Below are positions 2,101 to 21,317 of a stretch of DNA of 21,317 nt, piece by piece. The translations under genes were made by a program, and so were the position numbers. How positions within the stretch are numbered: position 1 is the first letter of the stretch; every line of letters starts with the position of its first letter. Origin of the DNA: a virus; IMG/VR virus record IMGVR_UViG_3300030106_002741, positions 38,093 to 59,409 of that record; one strand, 5' to 3'. The notes under the pieces were generated by a model, which had not been told where the DNA came from, did not search any database, and was given only the letters and a program-made list of their open reading frames with translations.

Positions 2101-5100
2101 TTATATATTAACCTGAACTTTTTCAGTACTATTTTGAAAATCCAAAACAGTACCAAATCGGCTTAAAAAGATTAGTAGGTCTGCCGTTGCAACCACTCCA
2201 TCATAATTAATGTCAGTTTTTATTAACTCTACATCACTACCCATTTTTGAAGGAGATTTAAGTGTAAATAGTAAATCTAGAAGTTCACTTCTACTAATAC
2301 CCTCTGTAGCTAAAACTTCTTCCAGCGTTGAAGAAGCGACTGTGTTTGCATCAATTTGTAACAGATTTGCAATAACGTCTTGCGTTTCTTGACTAATGTA
2401 AAAATCAAATGCTATAGCATCTGCAGTAGGGAAAACACCACCTTCAATTGCTGTTATGTTTTGTCTAATAGTGTCTACAGCATTTCTAAAACCTTGCATA
2501 CCCGCTTCATTAAAAAACGCTGGATTTACTCCAGTAACCCTATCTGCGGTAACTGTAGGGAAATTATATGACATTAGATTACCATCAGAATTATATCCAA
2601 CCGCACCTTGCAATCCAAAACTTTCTCCAACATCAGGATTATCTTGAGAACTGGCAGCAAGTAACCCTTGCCAAGCAGAAAGATGATTAAGCCCGCTTTG
2701 AACTGCATTTGTTATCTCTATATAAGTATTTTCTGTCTCTGGATCTGCAAACCCATACAGTATACTCATTTGATCTAATGTCTCAATAGTACCACTTGGG
2801 TCAAGACTTGAATGCGGAGAATACCTAGCGTCAAGTAAATGAGTTAAAATTGAAGTTAGTGCTACTTTAGCGTGAGATAAACGCTGATTTAAAATACTTA
2901 CTTCTGCTGCTGCTGAGGCTGCTGCTCCAGCTGCACCTGCATCTACTCCTTGCATGAATCCTTGTGCATAGCCATCATTGTATATTGCCTCAGTGTCAAC
3001 AGAAGCTACACCTGCGTTAAAAGCATCTTCGTTATCTGAAGTTATGTCAACCGATGCAGCACCTAAGTTAAAAGCATCTTGGTTGTCTAGTGTAATATCT
3101 ACAGAAGCAACACCTGCTACAAAACCTTCCTGATATGGTGTTTCTACATCTACGGATGCAACACCATCTGCATATCCTGCTGCAAAACCTTCTTCATAAA
3201 CAGTTGGGTTATCTGACGTAATATCTACAGAAGCTACACCTGCAGCAAACCCAGCATCATAATTGTCTAGTTGCTGTGCAGCAGCAAGCTCCGTTTCAAG
3301 ACCAGAAATAATTGAGTTTAAGCTAACGATTTGATCGTTAAGACCTACTATAGTATCAGCATCAGCTAAAGAAGCTGCATTTAAGTTTTCAATCTGCAGT
3401 GTAGCAGTAGCCAATTGAGCTGTTAAACTAGCTACTTCTGATTGAGATAAAGATAAGTTCTCTTGTAGGGTAGCTATTGTTTCAGCGTCTGCTAGCCCAG
3501 CAGCTTCTAAATTTGCTATAGTCTGTGCATCTAGGGCCGCAGCAACAGCAGCAGCATCCAGTTGACTCTGTAATTCGGATATTGTTTCAGTATCGATTCC
3601 AGCTTGTTCTAATAAACCTGTTATTTGATCCTGAGCATCATTTAAGTTTATATTAGCTGTATTTAACTCAGAAGTTAACTCTACAACTTGATCGTTTAGC
3701 TGGGTGATAAGTTCATTGTTACTTACGTTAGCCTCAACAAGAGCGTCATAATTGCCTTGTAAAACATTCAAGTCGTTTTGCAAATTATTAAAGTCACCCT
3801 GTAATCCTGTAAAATCAGCTTCTAAGCCATCTATATAATCTTTTATGTCTTGAGGAGTGTTTACAGTTGTTCCGTCAATAGCTGGCTGTATAGTGTTAAT
3901 AAAATCTAAAAGAAAATTAGACTCTAAAAGAGCGACAGCATCTTCAAGGTTGCTTGCTAAAGGAGTGTATATATCGCTGTAGCTTACAACCTCATCAGCA
4001 TCAAAAACCCCACTACTGTCAGAGTCTAAACCTACTAAATAATCTAATTCGTTAGTACCTGTAAATCCATCATAAAACTCTTCTAAAGAGCTTGGTAGGC
4101 TTTCTTTCTTAAATACGTTGTTTCCTGCTGGGGCCTGTAATGTAACTAATGTGTGTAGTACATTATATAACTGCTGCTCTAAAGAGTTTATTGTGGTTGT
4201 ATCTTGAATTACAGATCCACCTCCAGCTACATCGCCCTGTCCAGATGGTTCCACATAAGTAATAGCAGGCTGATTGTAAACACTAAGTATAAACTCGTCT
4301 TTTATCGGGTCATAACCGCCAACAACTTTTACTTTACCTTCAGCTTGTTCTGCATCAGCAAATAACTTCCTAAAGAAAGACTTCATGCCGCTTTCAGAAA
4401 TAACAGCTATCCCTGTAGAAGGGTTAAACTTATAAACCTCTCTACTACCCTTACTAGCAAAGTAAATGTTAGAACCGATAACGCAAACAGACTCTGGATT
4501 ATCGTCACACCCATATTCACCAGCGTAGTATCTTTCTGTACCCAAGACCATTGAAGCGGATATAAGAGACTCTTGATTAGAGGCTGTCGTAATTAAGTTT
4601 CTGTTTACTGGAACTGAGCTACACCTGCTAGACTGAATGACAAAAATAGAATCCTGCTGGTTTACTAAATAATTTATATTACCATACTCAGCTGGCATAT
4701 CCTTAAACTGAAGTTTAGCTGGGTTAAATGACGTTAAAGTAAACGTCGATGAAGCTGGATTGTTTTTATCTGAATACGTTATAGAAGCAGATCTTACTAC
4801 CTCTTGTGCGTTAGGATTGATGATTTTTATTTTTCCTTTACCTGTAACATCAGCATTTCTTACAGTATCATTAAACGCTTCCGTCTCTAAAGAATACGCT
4901 TGGAAGTTCGATTCTGAACCGTTTCCACCAGCGCTAATAGTATTTCCAATAAGACTTTCAAATATACCCGCATTAAAGTTAGGCATATTAACAGGAACCT
5001 TTCTCCACCATACATCTCCTTCAGTAAGAAGTATTGGAGTTCCTAGGTGGAATGAGCTATCCGCATCAAACACATTTGATGTTTCGTAAAAAACTTGGTT

Positions 5101-13889: not shown

Positions 13890-15320
13890 TTATCCTTTAA
13901 TAAGGACGTGTTGGTTAGCAGCACGAGTTACAAGACAGCACTCAGAACGGTAGTGGAACGTAGCAACGTCTTTACCAGCATCTCCGTTATTGTTGTGTCC
14001 TAGAACTCCTCCACCAGTTACCCAGTGCTCCATTTCACGAGAGTATCCATTAGCTTCTTTGTGGTACATAGTTAAAGCAGGAGCTTTAATTCCTGTACGA
14101 GCGTCAGCTACTTGAGTCATTGGAACCATTGCTCCTTGTAAGTAATTAGACGCACCCAAAAGAGTAGGATCGTTTAGAAGCTTCCAGTCATGCTTGTGGA
14201 ATGTATACCCACCACGAGTAAACGACTTAAATCCAAGCTTAACAGCCATGTCAGCATCGTTGTTAAACGCACCGAACTGTCCAGCTAGACCAGCAGTTAC
14301 ACCTGTAGAAATACCTGAAGCAAGCATATCATCGATAGCTAAGTCTTGCTTTCTGTTTACGTACATAGCGTACTCAGAAGTAGCACCGTTCTTATCAAGC
14401 TCAAGGATGATATCATCAAACTCAGCAAAAGAATCTAGTGGGTTAGCGTTAGCGTTAGAAACCACGATACCTCTTGACTCAACAGCAGATACATAACCTT
14501 CAGAACCAAGACCACTGTCTTGGTCTACGTTGTATGCTGCAGAAGCTCCAGCTCCATCAGCACCAGCCCTTGTTTCAGAAAAAAGCATCATCATTTCACG
14601 ACGATCTTCAAAACGCTTACGAGCCTCTTGCTCACCGTACATAAACCAGCGGTACTCACCGTTTCCGATGTTTACCCAACCGATGTTAGTAGCTTGTGAA
14701 CCGTTAACTTGGTAACGATCTTTAACGATCATAAATGGATTGTTACGTCTTACAACGTCAGTGTCCATAAAATGAGCTGGTTGATCAGTTCCTTGACCGT
14801 ACAAGTTACCGAGAACAACAAAAGCATCAGTAGCAGCAGCATCGTAATTGTCAACAGCATTAGTGTCTCCGTCAAGAGCTTCTGCAGTTACTGTTGTAGC
14901 TCCTGAAGCTGTAGGAGTTGATACGCCAACAGCTGTAACAAAGTACCTACGCCCATCAGCAGTGTCCATAATGACATCATTAGCACCAACAGGGTGGCCG
15001 TTTGTAGTGTCAGCAGGAATGTTAATAGTTAAGGTGTCACCTGAAGCAGTTGTCCCGTCAGAAGTTACGTCAAAAGTTCTGTGACGACGACCAACTTCAA
15101 AGTAGTCGATCTGATCCGAACTACCTCCAGATTGAACAGCACCTGTTAATTTTAGGAATCCAGTAATTCCTTGATCACCGTAAGTTTCAACAAGCTCAGG
15201 CATAACAAAGTCTTTGTTATGGTCAAGCAATGTACCTACAGTTGTATATGTTTCTGGCGTTAATCGCAAGTGAGCTGGTTTCGCATCCACTCCACTTGCC
15301 GCCGCAGCAGTAGTAGCCAT
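13890..15320 (-). CDS. Major capsid protein (HK97-fold candidate)
   Basis: A 476 aa protein directly after a scaffold-like gene (13-base gap). It starts MATTAAAASGVDAKPAHLRL. Residues ~80-165 are a Thr/Ala/Asp-rich beta segment that could be an insertion domain. At 222-250 it has EYRWFMYGEQEARKRFEDRR and then EMMMLFSE, the long-helix (spine-type) pattern I associate with crAss-like and marine Bacteroidetes phage capsid proteins. The C-terminal part includes FKSFTRGGYTFHKHDWKLLND and ends in a beta-rich EMEHWVTGGG ... FHYRSECCLVTRAANQHVL. Length is usual for a major capsid protein of a large podovirus. Codon use is visibly richer in G/C-ending codons than in the neighbours, as expected for the most highly expressed virion gene. 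Family placement is by pattern and synteny. Confidence 0.8.
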   Translation of the reverse strand: MATTAAAASGVDAKPAHLRLTPETYTTVGTLLDHNKDFVMPELVETYGDQGITGFLKLTGAVQSGGSSDQIDYFEVGRRHRTFDVTSDGTTASGDTLTINIPADTTNGHPVGANDVIMDTADGRRYFVTAVGVSTPTASGATTVTAEALDGDTNAVDNYDAAATDAFVVLGNLYGQGTDQPAHFMDTDVVRRNNPFMIVKDRYQVNGSQATNIGWVNIGNGEYRWFMYGEQEARKRFEDRREMMMLFSETRAGADGAGASAAYNVDQDSGLGSEGYVSAVESRGIVVSNANANPLDSFAEFDDIILELDKNGATSEYAMYVNRKQDLAIDDMLASGISTGVTAGLAGQFGAFNNDADMAVKLGFKSFTRGGYTFHKHDWKLLNDPTLLGASNYLQGAMVPMTQVADARTGIKAPALTMYHKEANGYSREMEHWVTGGGVLGHNNNGDAGKDVATFHYRSECCLVTRAANQHVLIKG

Positions 15321-17846: not shown

Positions 17847-18173
17847 TTATTTCTTTTTGCTTTTTCCAGATCTAATCTTAGCCGCTTCTTTTTTACCAAA
17901 GGCGCTTTTTACACGAGCCATAGCCCAAGCATGCTGAGAAACTTTTGGTCTATTGCCAGAACTCATGTAAGCAGCGAGACCTCTTTTGTATACTTGTTTT
18001 TCAGCAGCATCAAGTCCAGCCATACCACCCTTTTTAAACATCTTTACTTTACCCCCTCCTTTAAATACGCCTCTTCCTTTTAAAACGTCTGCACGGGTAA
18101 CTTTACCGTCTCCAGTAAGATCTGGGAACTTTCCTCCCTTTTTGTATTCGGTTTTTTTCTTTTTTATTTTCAT
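17847..18173 (-). CDS. Small basic protein with N-terminal MK-x-KK-GGK motif and EF-hand loop
   Basis: A 108 aa, very Lys/Arg-rich protein. Residues 1-15 are MKIKKKKTEYKKGGK. Residues 18-29, DLTGDGKVTRAD, fit a 12-residue dockerin/EF-hand calcium loop (D1, T3, D5, G6, V8, D12) followed by VLKGRGVF. The C-terminal half has VYKRGLAAYMSSGNRP and SQHAWAMARVKSAF, then a basic tail. I recall similar FPDLTGDGKVTxADVLKGRG proteins in marine phages, without known function. The ATG overlaps the previous stop by four bases (ATGA). The positive charge suggests binding to nucleic acid or an acidic surface. It is the last gene of the overlapping chain. Confidence 0.65.
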   Translation of the reverse strand: MKIKKKKTEYKKGGKFPDLTGDGKVTRADVLKGRGVFKGGGKVKMFKKGGMAGLDAAEKQVYKRGLAAYMSSGNRPKVSQHAWAMARVKSAFGKKEAAKIRSGKSKKK

Positions 18174-18507: not shown

Positions 18508-18788
18508 CACCACTTTACTTTATTAGCCCAGTAAGCTGCACTCATTTTACCCTTAGCTATGTTTTTAGCATGCCTAGCTTTAAATGATTTACGCCTAGCT
18601 TTAGACCTTGCGTCTTTTTTCTTACCAGCAGTAGTTACACCCTGCTGTCCAAAACGTATTAGCTTTATCTTATCCCCTACCTTAGCTACAACAACATGTG
18701 ACTTTGTAGGATGGCTAGGAGTACGTTTTGCTTTGTTGTAGCCGCTTACTCCTGCTCTCGTTAGTCTGGGATCTTTCTTTTTAGCCAT
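18507..18788 (-). CDS. Small basic conserved phage protein (DUF6321-like)
   Basis: A 93 aa Lys/Arg-rich protein: DPRLTRAGVSGYNKAKRTPS, HPTKSHVVVAKVGDKIKLIR, FGQQGVTTAGKKK, SFKARHAKNIAKGKMSAAYW and ANKVKW. This sequence order is strongly conserved in many marine phages as I remember them, in a family I believe is called DUF6321; the number is from memory and needs a profile search. No catalytic motif is apparent. It overlaps both neighbours by one base. The basic charge and place near structural genes suggest nucleic-acid or virion association, but this is inference. Confidence 0.7.
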   Translation of the reverse strand: MAKKKDPRLTRAGVSGYNKAKRTPSHPTKSHVVVAKVGDKIKLIRFGQQGVTTAGKKKDARSKARRKSFKARHAKNIAKGKMSAAYWANKVKW

Positions 18789-19126
18789 CAGAAATCACTC
18801 ATTATAATTTCATCGACAGCTTCTTGCACTTCATCTTGAGTCGCTTCTAACTGCATCATGATGTTTGCTTGAAATCTTTCTACTTCCTCTCCATCGTTAA
18901 ATACAATAACTGTTGGGACCACTACAATCTTATGTTCTTTTTGTAACGCTGGTTCAGCTGCTATATCTACACGACGACCTTTACAATCGCTGAGTTCATC
19001 AATCCAGTCCACACTGTTTACTGCATTAAAGCTAGCATTAAACTCAACGACACACACCCCTGAATCTGGTATATCCATACTAAGAGATGTGATTGCAAAC
19101 AAACATATGTAGATTAAATTCTTCAC
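18788..19126 (-). CDS. Exported thioredoxin-fold protein lacking the CxxC active site
   Basis: A 112 aa protein. Residues 1-17 (MKNLIYICLFAITSLSM) look like a signal peptide. The rest has the thioredoxin order. The beta strand plus active-site loop VVEFNASFNAVN (26-37) aligns with VxFWAxWCGPCK, so both catalytic cysteines are replaced (NAVN). The cis-proline loop VVPTVIVFNDGEEV is at 69-82 (Pro71), with a final helix QDEVQEAVDEIIMS. Cysteines remain only at 8, 25 and 48. The related marine phage proteins I recall share RFQANIMMQ and IIMSDF. Disulfide chemistry is unlikely; a binding or chaperone-like role in the periplasm, or in the virion, is possible. It overlaps the upstream gene by four bases and the downstream gene by one. 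Confidence 0.7.
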   Translation of the reverse strand: MKNLIYICLFAITSLSMDIPDSGVCVVEFNASFNAVNSVDWIDELSDCKGRRVDIAAEPALQKEHKIVVVPTVIVFNDGEEVERFQANIMMQLEATQDEVQEAVDEIIMSDF

Positions 19127-19407
19127 TGTAGCTTATCTATTTTTTCTTCGATGCGGTCTAAATCTTCTTTGAGCTCTGATACATCTTCTTGTGTAGTCAT
19201 GATTGTTTGACGAACTAACTGATCCTTCATATCAAACTCCATACGTGTAATCTCTGGATCTGCTGGTTCTGGTAATTCTTTAGCTAGAGCAATATCAGCT
19301 TGTAGCGTAAACCACATCCCAATGAGAGCTGCTAGCCCTGCTACACCCAACCCTATCGTCTTTAGGTCAAAGGTTACTTTAGTATCTTCTCCAATTTGCT
19401 TTGCCAT
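19123..19407 (-). CDS. One-TM protein with C-terminal coiled coil
   Basis: A 94 aa protein. It has a short cytosolic-type N-terminus (MAKQIGEDTKVTFDLK), one hydrophobic segment at ~17-35 (TIGLGVAGLAALIGMWFTL), an acidic Pro-rich hinge (ELPEPADPEI), and a charged heptad-like helix (DVSELKEDLDRIEEKIDKLQ) at the end. The topology resembles small phage membrane proteins such as holin-like or spanin-like proteins. There is no lipobox, and only one TM segment. Similar proteins exist in marine phages by my recollection, without assigned function. It overlaps the thioredoxin-fold gene by four bases (ATGA), so the two are probably co-translated. Confidence 0.6.
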   Translation of the reverse strand: MAKQIGEDTKVTFDLKTIGLGVAGLAALIGMWFTLQADIALAKELPEPADPEITRMEFDMKDQLVRQTIMTTQEDVSELKEDLDRIEEKIDKLQ

Positions 19408-19408
19408 T

Positions 19409-19621
19409 TTACTGTTTTCTAAATATATATTCTTTAGTTTTTTCGTCTTGGAATAATTTATATTGTGGAGCTCCTTTTGTGTTACGACCTGAAGTAAAAC
19501 CCTGTGACCTTAAGTACTTATCAAGTTTTTTATCTGCAGCTTCACGAGATACACCTCTTATAGAATGCTTAGAAGGTGTCTTACCCCCAATATTATATTT
19601 TTTTTTCTTTCTTACCTTCAT
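19409..19621 (-). CDS. Small basic protein with MK-x-KK-GGK motif
   Basis: The start is placed at the ATG at 19621 (70 aa, MKVRKKKKYNIGGKTPSK). It overlaps the TGA of the beta-barrel gene by four bases (ATGA) and gives the N-terminal motif shared with three other small genes. A reading 17 codons longer would overlap the beta-barrel gene by 55 bases and adds nothing conserved. The middle reads VSREAADKKLDKYLRSQGFT, and the end TKGAPQYKLFQDEKTKEYIF. It is probably a small helix-plus-hairpin domain. Function unknown. Confidence 0.6.
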   Translation of the reverse strand: MKVRKKKKYNIGGKTPSKHSIRGVSREAADKKLDKYLRSQGFTSGRNTKGAPQYKLFQDEKTKEYIFRKQ

Positions 19622-20691
19622 AGTATTACATAGTTTAGCCCAACAGAGAAATCGTGCCATTCTCGATTCCAATACTTATTGTATTTACCCTCTAAGAATA
19701 CACCAAGACTCTTGTTTAATCTCCACCCAAAGATAAGGCCTAATCCGTAATCCGTCCATTGCTCGTCTTCAGTGGTCTCAAAGAAAGAAAATTCGTTATC
19801 TGTTTTTAAATGATATGGCATAACACTAGCCCAGCTATGAACCCAAAAGTCTTTGCTGTACTTGTAATAATCATAACCTAAAACGACAGAATAATTCCAA
19901 ACATTAGGCAGTTCACTTCTTTTTGTAGCTACATAATCATTAATAACTTGAGGTATAATAACCTGCTCCCACACATCAACGCTATTAGCTACAAGAGTAC
20001 CGTCTGGCGCAAAGTACTCTCCCGCCTGTACGTCAACTGTATAACCTTCTTGTATAGCTAAGCTTGTATAATGTATATTGTTATTTGATAACACCCACTC
20101 TTCTAGAGGGTCGTACCCGTAAGGCTCTGATATACGTTGAGCTACACCAATGTTAAAACTAAGACGATCATTTGCATGAAGTCTAAACCTCTGAGAACCC
20201 TCAAAGTATTGTACATCTGCAAAACCATCTTGAAGGTATTCAACCTTAGCTATCCAGTTTTTTGCTACATAACGCAGGAAGTAATCTTGATCAAGAAAAT
20301 TTCTACCCTGCTGCCTACGCCAGTCAGCCTCAAATAAAAACTCAAATCCTTTTACTTTACCGATGTTTGCTGCATCGCTGTAAGATTTTTCCGTACCGTC
20401 ATAAAACACATTAGCCCTGTTCTCGTACCCAAACCTAGCAATCTTACGGACACCAGCTGTAATAGAGTAATCGAATGGGGTTTTAACAACATCAGTCTGC
20501 AAGCCGTTTGTTACGGAGTAGATATTATCGTCAGCTACAGAGTTACCACCGCTAAAAGCAGTGTAGAATGTAGCATACTTAAATGTCTTTTTTAGAGTCT
20601 GTCCTTTTGCGTCAAGAGTGCTGCCTAATATAAAGGCTACAATCATGATCAAAGCATAGACAAATACAGTTAAATCTTTTTTGTGTGTCAT
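19618..20691 (-). CDS. Phage-encoded outer-membrane beta-barrel-like protein
   Basis: A 357 aa protein. Residues 1-31 form a signal peptide: MTHKKD, a hydrophobic core (TVFVYALIMIVAFILG), and a probable signal peptidase I site after AKG, giving mature QTLKK. The remainder alternates aromatic and polar residues in repeated beta strands (FDYSITAGVRKI, VKGFEFLFEADW, FRLHANDRLSFNIGVAQR, NYSVVLGYDYYKY, YGLGLIFGWRLN). It ends in a strand with an aromatic near the terminus (FSVGLNYVIL), typical of outer-membrane barrels. It does not look like PorP/SprF. I remember homologues with IARFGYENRANVFYDGTE in marine phage genomes, unassigned. Overlapping coupling with genes on both sides places it in one operon. 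It may alter the host outer membrane during infection (for example receptor masking); that is inference. Confidence 0.65.
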   Translation of the reverse strand: MTHKKDLTVFVYALIMIVAFILGSTLDAKGQTLKKTFKYATFYTAFSGGNSVADDNIYSVTNGLQTDVVKTPFDYSITAGVRKIARFGYENRANVFYDGTEKSYSDAANIGKVKGFEFLFEADWRRQQGRNFLDQDYFLRYVAKNWIAKVEYLQDGFADVQYFEGSQRFRLHANDRLSFNIGVAQRISEPYGYDPLEEWVLSNNNIHYTSLAIQEGYTVDVQAGEYFAPDGTLVANSVDVWEQVIIPQVINDYVATKRSELPNVWNYSVVLGYDYYKYSKDFWVHSWASVMPYHLKTDNEFSFFETTEDEQWTDYGLGLIFGWRLNKSLGVFLEGKYNKYWNREWHDFSVGLNYVIL

Positions 20692-20876
20692 TAGAATTCA
20701 AATCCAAAATTTAAGATCATAAGTCTAAATTTATTACAATGTCCTTTTGTCTTACAAGAAGGGCAAGGACAGAATGAAATCTCAAACACAGTAACTGTAC
20801 CTATTCTTAGGTTGATCTCATACTTTTCTTTTTTGTTTCCAGCATTCCAGCTGTTTATCCAATTTATTTTCATCAT
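20691..20876 (-). CDS. Hypothetical small protein with cysteine cluster
   Basis: A 61 aa protein that starts MMKINWINSWNAG. It has a beta segment YEINLRIGTVTVFEISF followed by a cysteine cluster CPCPSCKTKGHC and ends LMILNFGFEF. Four cysteines in C-x-C-x2-C-x5-C spacing, plus a histidine, could bind zinc or form disulfides. There is no signal peptide, so cytosolic zinc binding is more likely. Start at 20876 (ATGATGA, sharing bases with the upstream TGA); the second ATG at 20873 is equally possible. The stop shares one base with the beta-barrel ATG. No family recognised. Confidence 0.5.
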   Translation of the reverse strand: MMKINWINSWNAGNKKEKYEINLRIGTVTVFEISFCPCPSCKTKGHCNKFRLMILNFGFEF

Positions 20877-21073
20877 GCTAAAATTATGCGGTTATAAAAA
20901 TCTAAATCTATTTCTTTAATAGGATTAATAAAATTTACACGACAGTACCTATTAATTTCCTGTCTTTTAGTTTTGCTGTTTGTTACACAGACATTTGCAG
21001 CTTGATATTCTGCATTTTTTGTTAAAAGCTTATCAATACGCTTTTTTGTTGTTTTGTTTGTTCTGTAACTCAT
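20873..21073 (-). CDS. Hypothetical small basic protein
   Basis: A 66 aa Lys/Arg/Asn-rich protein (MSYRTNKTTKKRIDKLLTKN at the start, then AEYQAANVCVTNSKTKRQEI and a more hydrophobic end, IDLDFYNRIILA). It is overlapped by four bases at both ends (ATGA with the T9SS-domain gene upstream and with the 61 aa gene downstream). This coupled layout is the main evidence that it is a gene. I do not recognise a family; it has two cysteines and no membrane segment or signal peptide. Confidence 0.45.
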   Translation of the reverse strand: MSYRTNKTTKKRIDKLLTKNAEYQAANVCVTNSKTKRQEINRYCRVNFINPIKEIDLDFYNRIILA

Positions 21074-21317
21074 GATTTAATTATTTTTTTAATTATAGTT
21101 CTTCCGTTATATTGAATAACAACCTGATACACGCTATTAGAGAGCTCTGAAATGTCTATAACTTTGTCTATGGTCCCCTCTATTACGACTTGTCCAAATG
21201 CGTTGTATACGCTTGTAATGGCCCCAGATGGAGCTTGTATGTTTAGTAAGTCGTTTGTTGGGTTAGGGTATACACTGTATACATCATGTATATCGTATAC
21301 ACCTTGTGGCCACCCTT
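21070..21317 (-). CDS. C-terminus of a type IX secretion system cargo protein (partial)
   Basis: Only the last 81 residues are in the window; the gene continues past base 21317. They form a near-complete type A T9SS C-terminal sorting domain (TIGR04183 type). It has SVYPNPTNDLLNI, then ITSVYNAFGQVV, IDISELSNSVYQVVI and NGRTIIKKIIKS at the very end. In Bacteroidetes this domain carries proteins across the outer membrane through the Por/T9SS machine and is then removed or linked to the surface. The TGA overlaps the next ATG by four bases (ATGA), so this gene belongs to the phage operon and is not chance host flanking DNA. The passenger part is unseen, so its activity (adhesin, enzyme, tail fibre) cannot be given. 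Confidence 0.85.
   Translation of the reverse strand, partial: GWPQGVYDIHDVYSVYPNPTNDLLNIQAPSGAITSVYNAFGQVVIEGTIDKVIDISELSNSVYQVVIQYNGRTIIKKIIKS

Follow-up and report, generated by a model that had tools for sequence, protein, structure and literature searches.

Bacteroidota deliver proteins to the exterior of the cell mainly through the type IX secretion system (T9SS), and the locus described here raises the question of why a phage should encode a protein that ends in the sorting signal of this system. The stretch analysed (hereafter the window) covers the terminal 21,317 bases of a virus record (a phage contig) of 59,409 bases, and its final ORF, an 81-aa fragment, is not closed at the contig end. 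This fragment contains the motifs SVYPNPTNDLLNI...YNAFGQVV...DISELSNSVYQVVI...IIKKIIKS, in which an earlier note on this DNA had seen a T9SS type A sorting domain. The domain is real, since residues 15-80 of the 81, i.e., the very C-terminus of the protein, match both Pfam Por_Secre_tail (PF18962; E 3.6e-11, 43.6 bits, cut-off 27) and the type A family TIGR04183 (E 2.2e-10, 40.3 bits, cut-off 23). The type B family TIGR04131, which the same note had proposed to search, gave no NCBIfam match and a type B identity was rejected. The reading that we prefer, with a probability of about 0.62, is that this protein (here called C) is a phage-encoded cargo of the host T9SS, displayed at or shed from the surface of the infected cell together with a module of three further phage proteins, B, m and t.

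The location of the fragment at a contig end is what would be seen if the assembly had fused the end of a host T9SS gene onto a phage contig. However, the far end of this contig supplies the rest of the gene in frame (another 813 residues beyond position 21317), and many independent contigs carry intact homologues in the same gene order, so that an assembly chimera can be ruled out, the chance that we would still give it being negligible. The contig join against which the earlier note had warned is thus the circular closure of one genome. As the two contig ends form a single frame inside C, the edge of the window is merely the cut of a circular genome, and the record is a circularly permuted and near-complete, essentially closed genome, for which no end repeat is recorded. 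The seam contains a 9-bp imperfect duplication (CEQGW followed by QGWPQG; window 21300-21317 and L117:1-12), the window genome having CEQGWQGWPQG across it where the relatives read CEQGWPQG. The gene is located in the phage late operon, and the ATGA overlap with the next gene is present, the partner in this overlap being just a 66-aa protein (Table 1).

Table 1. Position of C, its partner genes and neighbouring features (window coordinates unless another locus is given).
Feature	Position	Strand	Basis and remarks
C, last 81 residues: type A C-terminal sorting domain	21070..21315	(-)	PF18962, TIGR04183, in-frame continuation
C, other 813 residues	G000:C1:2-2440 (locus L117), outside window	(-)	Starts MKKLLFALFLIPSILFAQ, ends ...DLYSYCEQGW
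66-aa ORF	20873..21073	(-)	4-bp ATGA overlap with C: stop TGA 21072-21070, ATG at 21073
61-aa ORF	20691..20876	(-)	Start overlaps preceding ORF
B, 357-aa predicted outer-membrane beta-barrel, N-terminal export signal	19618..20691	(-)	AlphaFold model, PDB matches
m, 94-aa membrane protein	19123..19407	(-)	Read from sequence; conserved cassette member
t, 112-aa exported thioredoxin-fold protein, GTG start	18788..19126	(-)	TIGR01068, PF00085, alignment; conserved cassette member
Major capsid-type protein	13890..15320	(-)	PHROG 13704 E 3e-109; same-strand late/virion operon

Once completed, C is a protein of ~890 aa. The signal peptide that the earlier note had suggested looking for, and whose absence it had taken to speak against its proposal, is found at the N-terminus (MKKLLFALFLIPSILFAQ), where it is of the Bacteroidota type as judged by composition. 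It is followed by an N-terminal beta region (beta-sandwich), several Cys-paired repeats of the type GCxDPxAxNYxP / GCxDPxAxNYxPxANxDDGSC, a CCxxxWDxxC region and the type A T9SS signal. When a profile of the full-length homologues was compared with the PDB, it retrieved the solved T9SS sorting domains 8glk, 8glj and 5jvk, and also the gingipain 5hfs with a weak match. No catalytic domain was found in C with Pfam or NCBIfam, and the matches of a structure search were limited to Ig/Fn3-like folds with a very low TM-score, which counts against a role in polysaccharide breakdown and led us to reject an enzyme as the cargo. The combination of a long repeat array and Ig/Fn3-like domains looks more like an adhesin or a coat than like an enzyme.

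A search with the 81-aa fragment identified 37 viral loci, most of them with intact proteins of 690-1050 aa that preserve the plan of C (some others are truncated by contig ends); L038 was discarded, being an otherwise unrelated protein that shares just a sorting domain. The Pfam sorting domain is present in 29 of 30 diverse homologues, in which Pfam recognises essentially nothing else, and no C body lacking the domain scored among the loci scanned, with the exception of the split gene of the window itself. A rough in-house rule based on composition detected a signal-peptide-like N-terminus in 106 of the 117 non-redundant full ORFs, and several of its misses are plain signal peptides. For pairs at 70-99% identity, the median dN/dS of the sorting domain (NG86, rough at these divergences) was 0.18-0.28, compared with 0.05-0.08 for the body of C and 0.05-0.07 for B. 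Values so far below 1, the level towards which a tail without function would drift, show that the sorting domain is under purifying selection. Constraint on it is looser than on the body, as expected for a signal that is read mainly by its fold, and the low values of the body argue against a rapid surface arms race within a lineage.

C does not travel alone. In many relatives it is directly followed by B (median distance from the stop of C to the start of B, 11 bp), and the two are part of a conserved four-gene cassette, C, B, m and t. Although B belongs to no Pfam family, its AlphaFold model (pLDDT 69, pTM 0.62, i.e., medium confidence) shows ~12 antiparallel strands, and every one of the top PDB matches of this model is an outer-membrane barrel (porins, NanC, NalP, FapF and OmpG, with E down to 4.9e-8), a fold that is thus predicted for B. 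The barrel is remarkably well preserved, with a mean column identity of 69% across the sampled lineages. The linkage of an outer-membrane barrel gene to C suggests a surface partner, and an interaction between both proteins is what we would infer. A PorP/SprF identity for B was considered and rejected, as the PorP_SprF profile is not among the families listed, with E values of up to 10, for 37 members. The small protein m has one N-terminal transmembrane stretch followed by a predicted periplasmic coiled coil, an i-spanin- or holin-like topology. The matches of t to thioredoxin families are below cut-off (TIGR01068, E 2.3e-4; PF00085, E 0.0023), and in the alignment FNA[GS][WF]N replaces the WCxxC stretch while the cis-Pro VVVPT is retained, so that the redox-active CxxC motif is missing from it. 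None of the four window proteins matches the Pfam families of curli (CsgG, CsgF, curlin). All four are predicted to be proteins of the envelope or the exterior.

The cassette is abundant, with about 600 or more stretches in IMG/VR: the related stretches retrieved numbered 564 and at least 591 in two independent scans with the 357-aa B, and 477 in a scan with the thioredoxin-like t. According to HMM labelling, the large majority of the fetched loci are arranged as C-B-m-t, 13 as m-t-C-B and six as B-m-t-C (counts that include some contigs fetched more than once; there are 165 distinct B sequences). Locus L270 (798-3122), on a contig with a phage-type ribonucleotide reductase in a MAG of the order Flavobacteriales, has an M15 peptidase followed by B-m-t, without an adjoining C, and is a distant form of the cassette. 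The carriers have capsids of three kinds. Among the sampled cassette-bearing records, 33 have the type of the window and of the elemoviruses, 14 a crAss-like capsid (PF23898 above cut-off) and five a T4-like gp23. A T4-like contig in a Flavobacteriales MAG also has the cassette, followed by an amidase. The capsid protein of the window is 31% identical to a structural protein of a Flavobacterium elemovirus, and Cellulophaga phages match too. Its resemblance to the crAss capsid is weak and sub-threshold, which leaves room for a distant kinship between the window-type and the crAss-like phages, but not for the T4-like ones. In a tree of 35 B sequences, four lineage changes were counted for a minimum of two; the window type stayed together and the crAss-like and T4-like rows were split, pointing to transfer of the cassette between lineages. 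A single contig of 245,646 bases (L167 and L194) has two cassettes and two crAss-type capsid genes, and probably represents two phages or a duplicated assembly.

This distribution bears on the other possibility raised by the earlier note, namely that C is a virion protein, a receptor-binding spike or a decoration, and its sorting domain merely an Ig-like structural module. Such a role would agree with the location of C in a same-strand late operon near the portal, a collagen-like fibre and the capsid genes, and with the similar GC...NYNP repeats of a cyanophage virion structural protein. However, the signal peptide of nearly all homologues would take C away from the cytoplasm where virions are assembled, and C moves with the exported B and t among phages whose virions are unrelated. 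Neither is there a match to a virion family: the 81-aa fragment matches no PHROG, and the INPHARED matches of a full-length homologue were confined to stretches of the repeats or of the sorting domain. We therefore regard a virion role as quite improbable. The cyanophage protein in question (L267:4821-6371, of Synechococcus phage S-CAM3, with GC..S..NYNP repeats) is instructive in another sense. The cyanobacterial host of S-CAM3 has no T9SS, and these repeats are by themselves no sign of secretion.

Among the phages of INPHARED none of C, B, m and t has a full match; the partial matches concerned either the repeats alone (S-CAM3 and a marine single-cell virus) or the sorting domain alone (Flavobacterium phage immuto). 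The Flavobacterium elemovirus was considered as a cultured carrier given its related capsid gene, but C and B were not found there. Cellular genomes draw a similar picture. The repeats and/or the sorting domain score in 125 of the 148 genomes of the order of the Flavobacteriales MAG, whereas the full-length C appears in them solely on the phage contig. A separate scan of a genome collection found it on the MAG phage contig and on a short cassette-bearing contig binned as Nitrosopelagicus, and nowhere else. In the order to which the L120 MAG belongs, B matched twice among 396 species, on contigs that in both cases carry phage-type genes. C looks, we infer, put together from modules of the host secretome and not borrowed whole. 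As to the host, the relatives of the capsid infect Flavobacterium and Cellulophaga, both members of a T9SS-bearing phylum, and on this basis we assume a T9SS in the host of this phage. The hundreds of ocean phages with the cassette are likewise predicted to infect Bacteroidota.

A signal peptide and a type A domain in the same protein predict a passage by Sec, then by the T9SS, and a final destination at the surface or in the medium, and we consider export to the surface of the infected cell the best reading of the sequence of C. In this scheme C, B, m and t would be made together from one operon late in infection. The signal peptide would take C across the inner membrane by Sec, and in the periplasm the host T9SS would recognise its C-terminal domain, as expected for a member of the type A family, after which C would be exposed on the outside of the cell or released from it. 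B, in the outer membrane, would most likely be its partner or anchor, with m (inner membrane) and t (periplasm) completing a trans-envelope module. Because the largest protein of the cassette has both of the tags for T9SS export, the phages that carry it probably coat or remodel the exterior of the cells that they infect. The most likely use would be an altered surface on which rival or sibling phages fail to adsorb productively; such exclusion is speculative, and even taking C as a T9SS cargo we would give it well under an even chance. Exclusion, the capture of siblings and help in lysis are each compatible with the data.

Lysis would assign a different job to the same exported C: m would work like an i-spanin or holin and, jointly with B, t and C, would breach or destabilise the outer membrane as infection ends, so that C would serve release. 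The predicted distribution of the four products over inner membrane, periplasm, outer membrane and surface suits this role, and so do some of the neighbours, as a peptidoglycan-binding amidase adjoins the cassette in ~20 fetched loci, an M15 peptidase immediately precedes B-m-t in the distant relative mentioned above, and an amidase, M15 peptidase or holin-like gene is found within 4 kb in 39 of 74 well-flanked non-redundant loci. The remaining 35, however, have none of these genes nearby, which led us to reject a constant linkage, and most of the 39 depend on a holin-like family without Pfam confirmation, amidase or M15 peptidase genes being a minority. In addition, no recognisable lysin adjoins the cassette in the window genome, and a repeat adhesin of 800-1000 aa is not a known part of any spanin. 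We consider lysis an unlikely role. The holin-like family (~143 aa, with C-terminal transmembrane stretches) is often found before C (L116:4092-4568 and 55 similar neighbours); its homologue in the window genome is apparently joined, with a run of N between them, to the end of a 2088-aa ORF (L118:9992-16258).

A displayed adhesin could also clump infected cells with fresh hosts, forming a matrix for sibling capture, as has been proposed for the curli of pelagiphages. The cargo is repeat-rich, Ig/Fn3-like, non-enzymatic and has an outer-membrane partner, all of which would be appropriate for adhesion, and the curli cassettes of pelagiphages provide a parallel that has also crossed phage families (PMC9599517). 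Against it, nothing in the sequence tells adhesion from exclusion, and when the curli phage Melnitz was examined for clumping none was seen (PMC9004378). Clumping seems to us about as improbable as lysis. These pelagiphage modules (type VIII secretion) are in any case the nearest functional parallel to the cassette, consisting of a phage outer-membrane pore and an exported repeat protein that are transferred as a block between podo- and myophages, with exclusion, sibling capture and lysis as proposed roles only (PMC9599517; PMC9004378). They differ in that the pore is their own and belongs to a known secretion system, while C is tagged for the T9SS of the host.

Returning to T9SS export as the preferred reading, phage-encoded T9SS cargo is already known. 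Cryophage has genes that end in type A sorting domains, as C does, and use of the host system was proposed (Nat Commun 2020, PMC7468147), but its cargo genes are variable or flexible, have enzyme or PA14 domains and belong to one phage type, whereas here we find a four-gene cassette with an outer-membrane barrel and a non-enzymatic cargo in phages with three capsid types. The crAss-like gut phages also encode proteins with T9SS sorting domains near the head genes of Bacteroidota phages, in their case beside genes with BACON repeats, in a gut habitat and with no cassette described (Viruses 2019, PMC6949934). These two were the only precedents for T9SS in viral genomes in the literature searched, which mostly excluded subscription journals, and within this scope the C-B-m-t cassette was not found. 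Among bacteria, the T9SS pairs of the SprB-SprF or PorP type have a cargo gene beside the gene of an outer-membrane barrel, and their cargos have type B domains. The gene arrangement of C and B is alike, but the domain of C is of type A, and PorP_SprF does not match B. The closest cultured case is protein immuto35A_15 of Flavobacterium phage immuto_3-5A (MW353176.1, L266:5557-6288; host Flavobacterium sp. LMO8), with a signal-peptide-like N-terminus and PF18962 (E 5.4e-9). It differs from C in having a cohesin domain, its homology to C is limited to the sorting domain, and the phage lacks the C-B-m-t genes; still, it is a ready laboratory model for a phage-encoded T9SS-tagged protein. Beside immuto35A_15 there are exported-looking nuclease and C-type lectin proteins. 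A CsgG suspected by eye in this neighbourhood was dropped for want of a Pfam match.

The ~600 or more stretches, the three kinds of capsid and the T9SS-tagged protein taken together suggest that hijacking of the T9SS by phages is common, and extends beyond one cryoconite phage. A wider proposal, which we put forward tentatively and hold somewhat likelier to be wrong than right, is that marine Bacteroidota phages have in C-B-m-t a mobile machine spanning the envelope, which connects a phage surface protein to the host T9SS, with B as a phage-encoded outer-membrane receptor or anchor, the whole forming a dedicated coat of the infected cell that is common to unrelated phage families. The cassette offers concrete proteins with which to ask if phages re-dress the surface of infected Bacteroidota. 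The answer would matter for superinfection, adsorption and lysis in a group of bacteria that is abundant in the sea.

Some other genes of this genome are worth recording. The opposite strand encodes a protein of 194 aa that has a Bacteroidota-type signal peptide and matches no family (L117:13277-13861(+)). A dockerin-like motif (DINYDGVVATADLLIFLSRFG; window 2101-2230(-)) forms the end of a 2189-aa virion-type protein, and a similar one, DLTGDGKVTRADVLKGRG, is present in a 108-aa ORF (17847-18173(-)).
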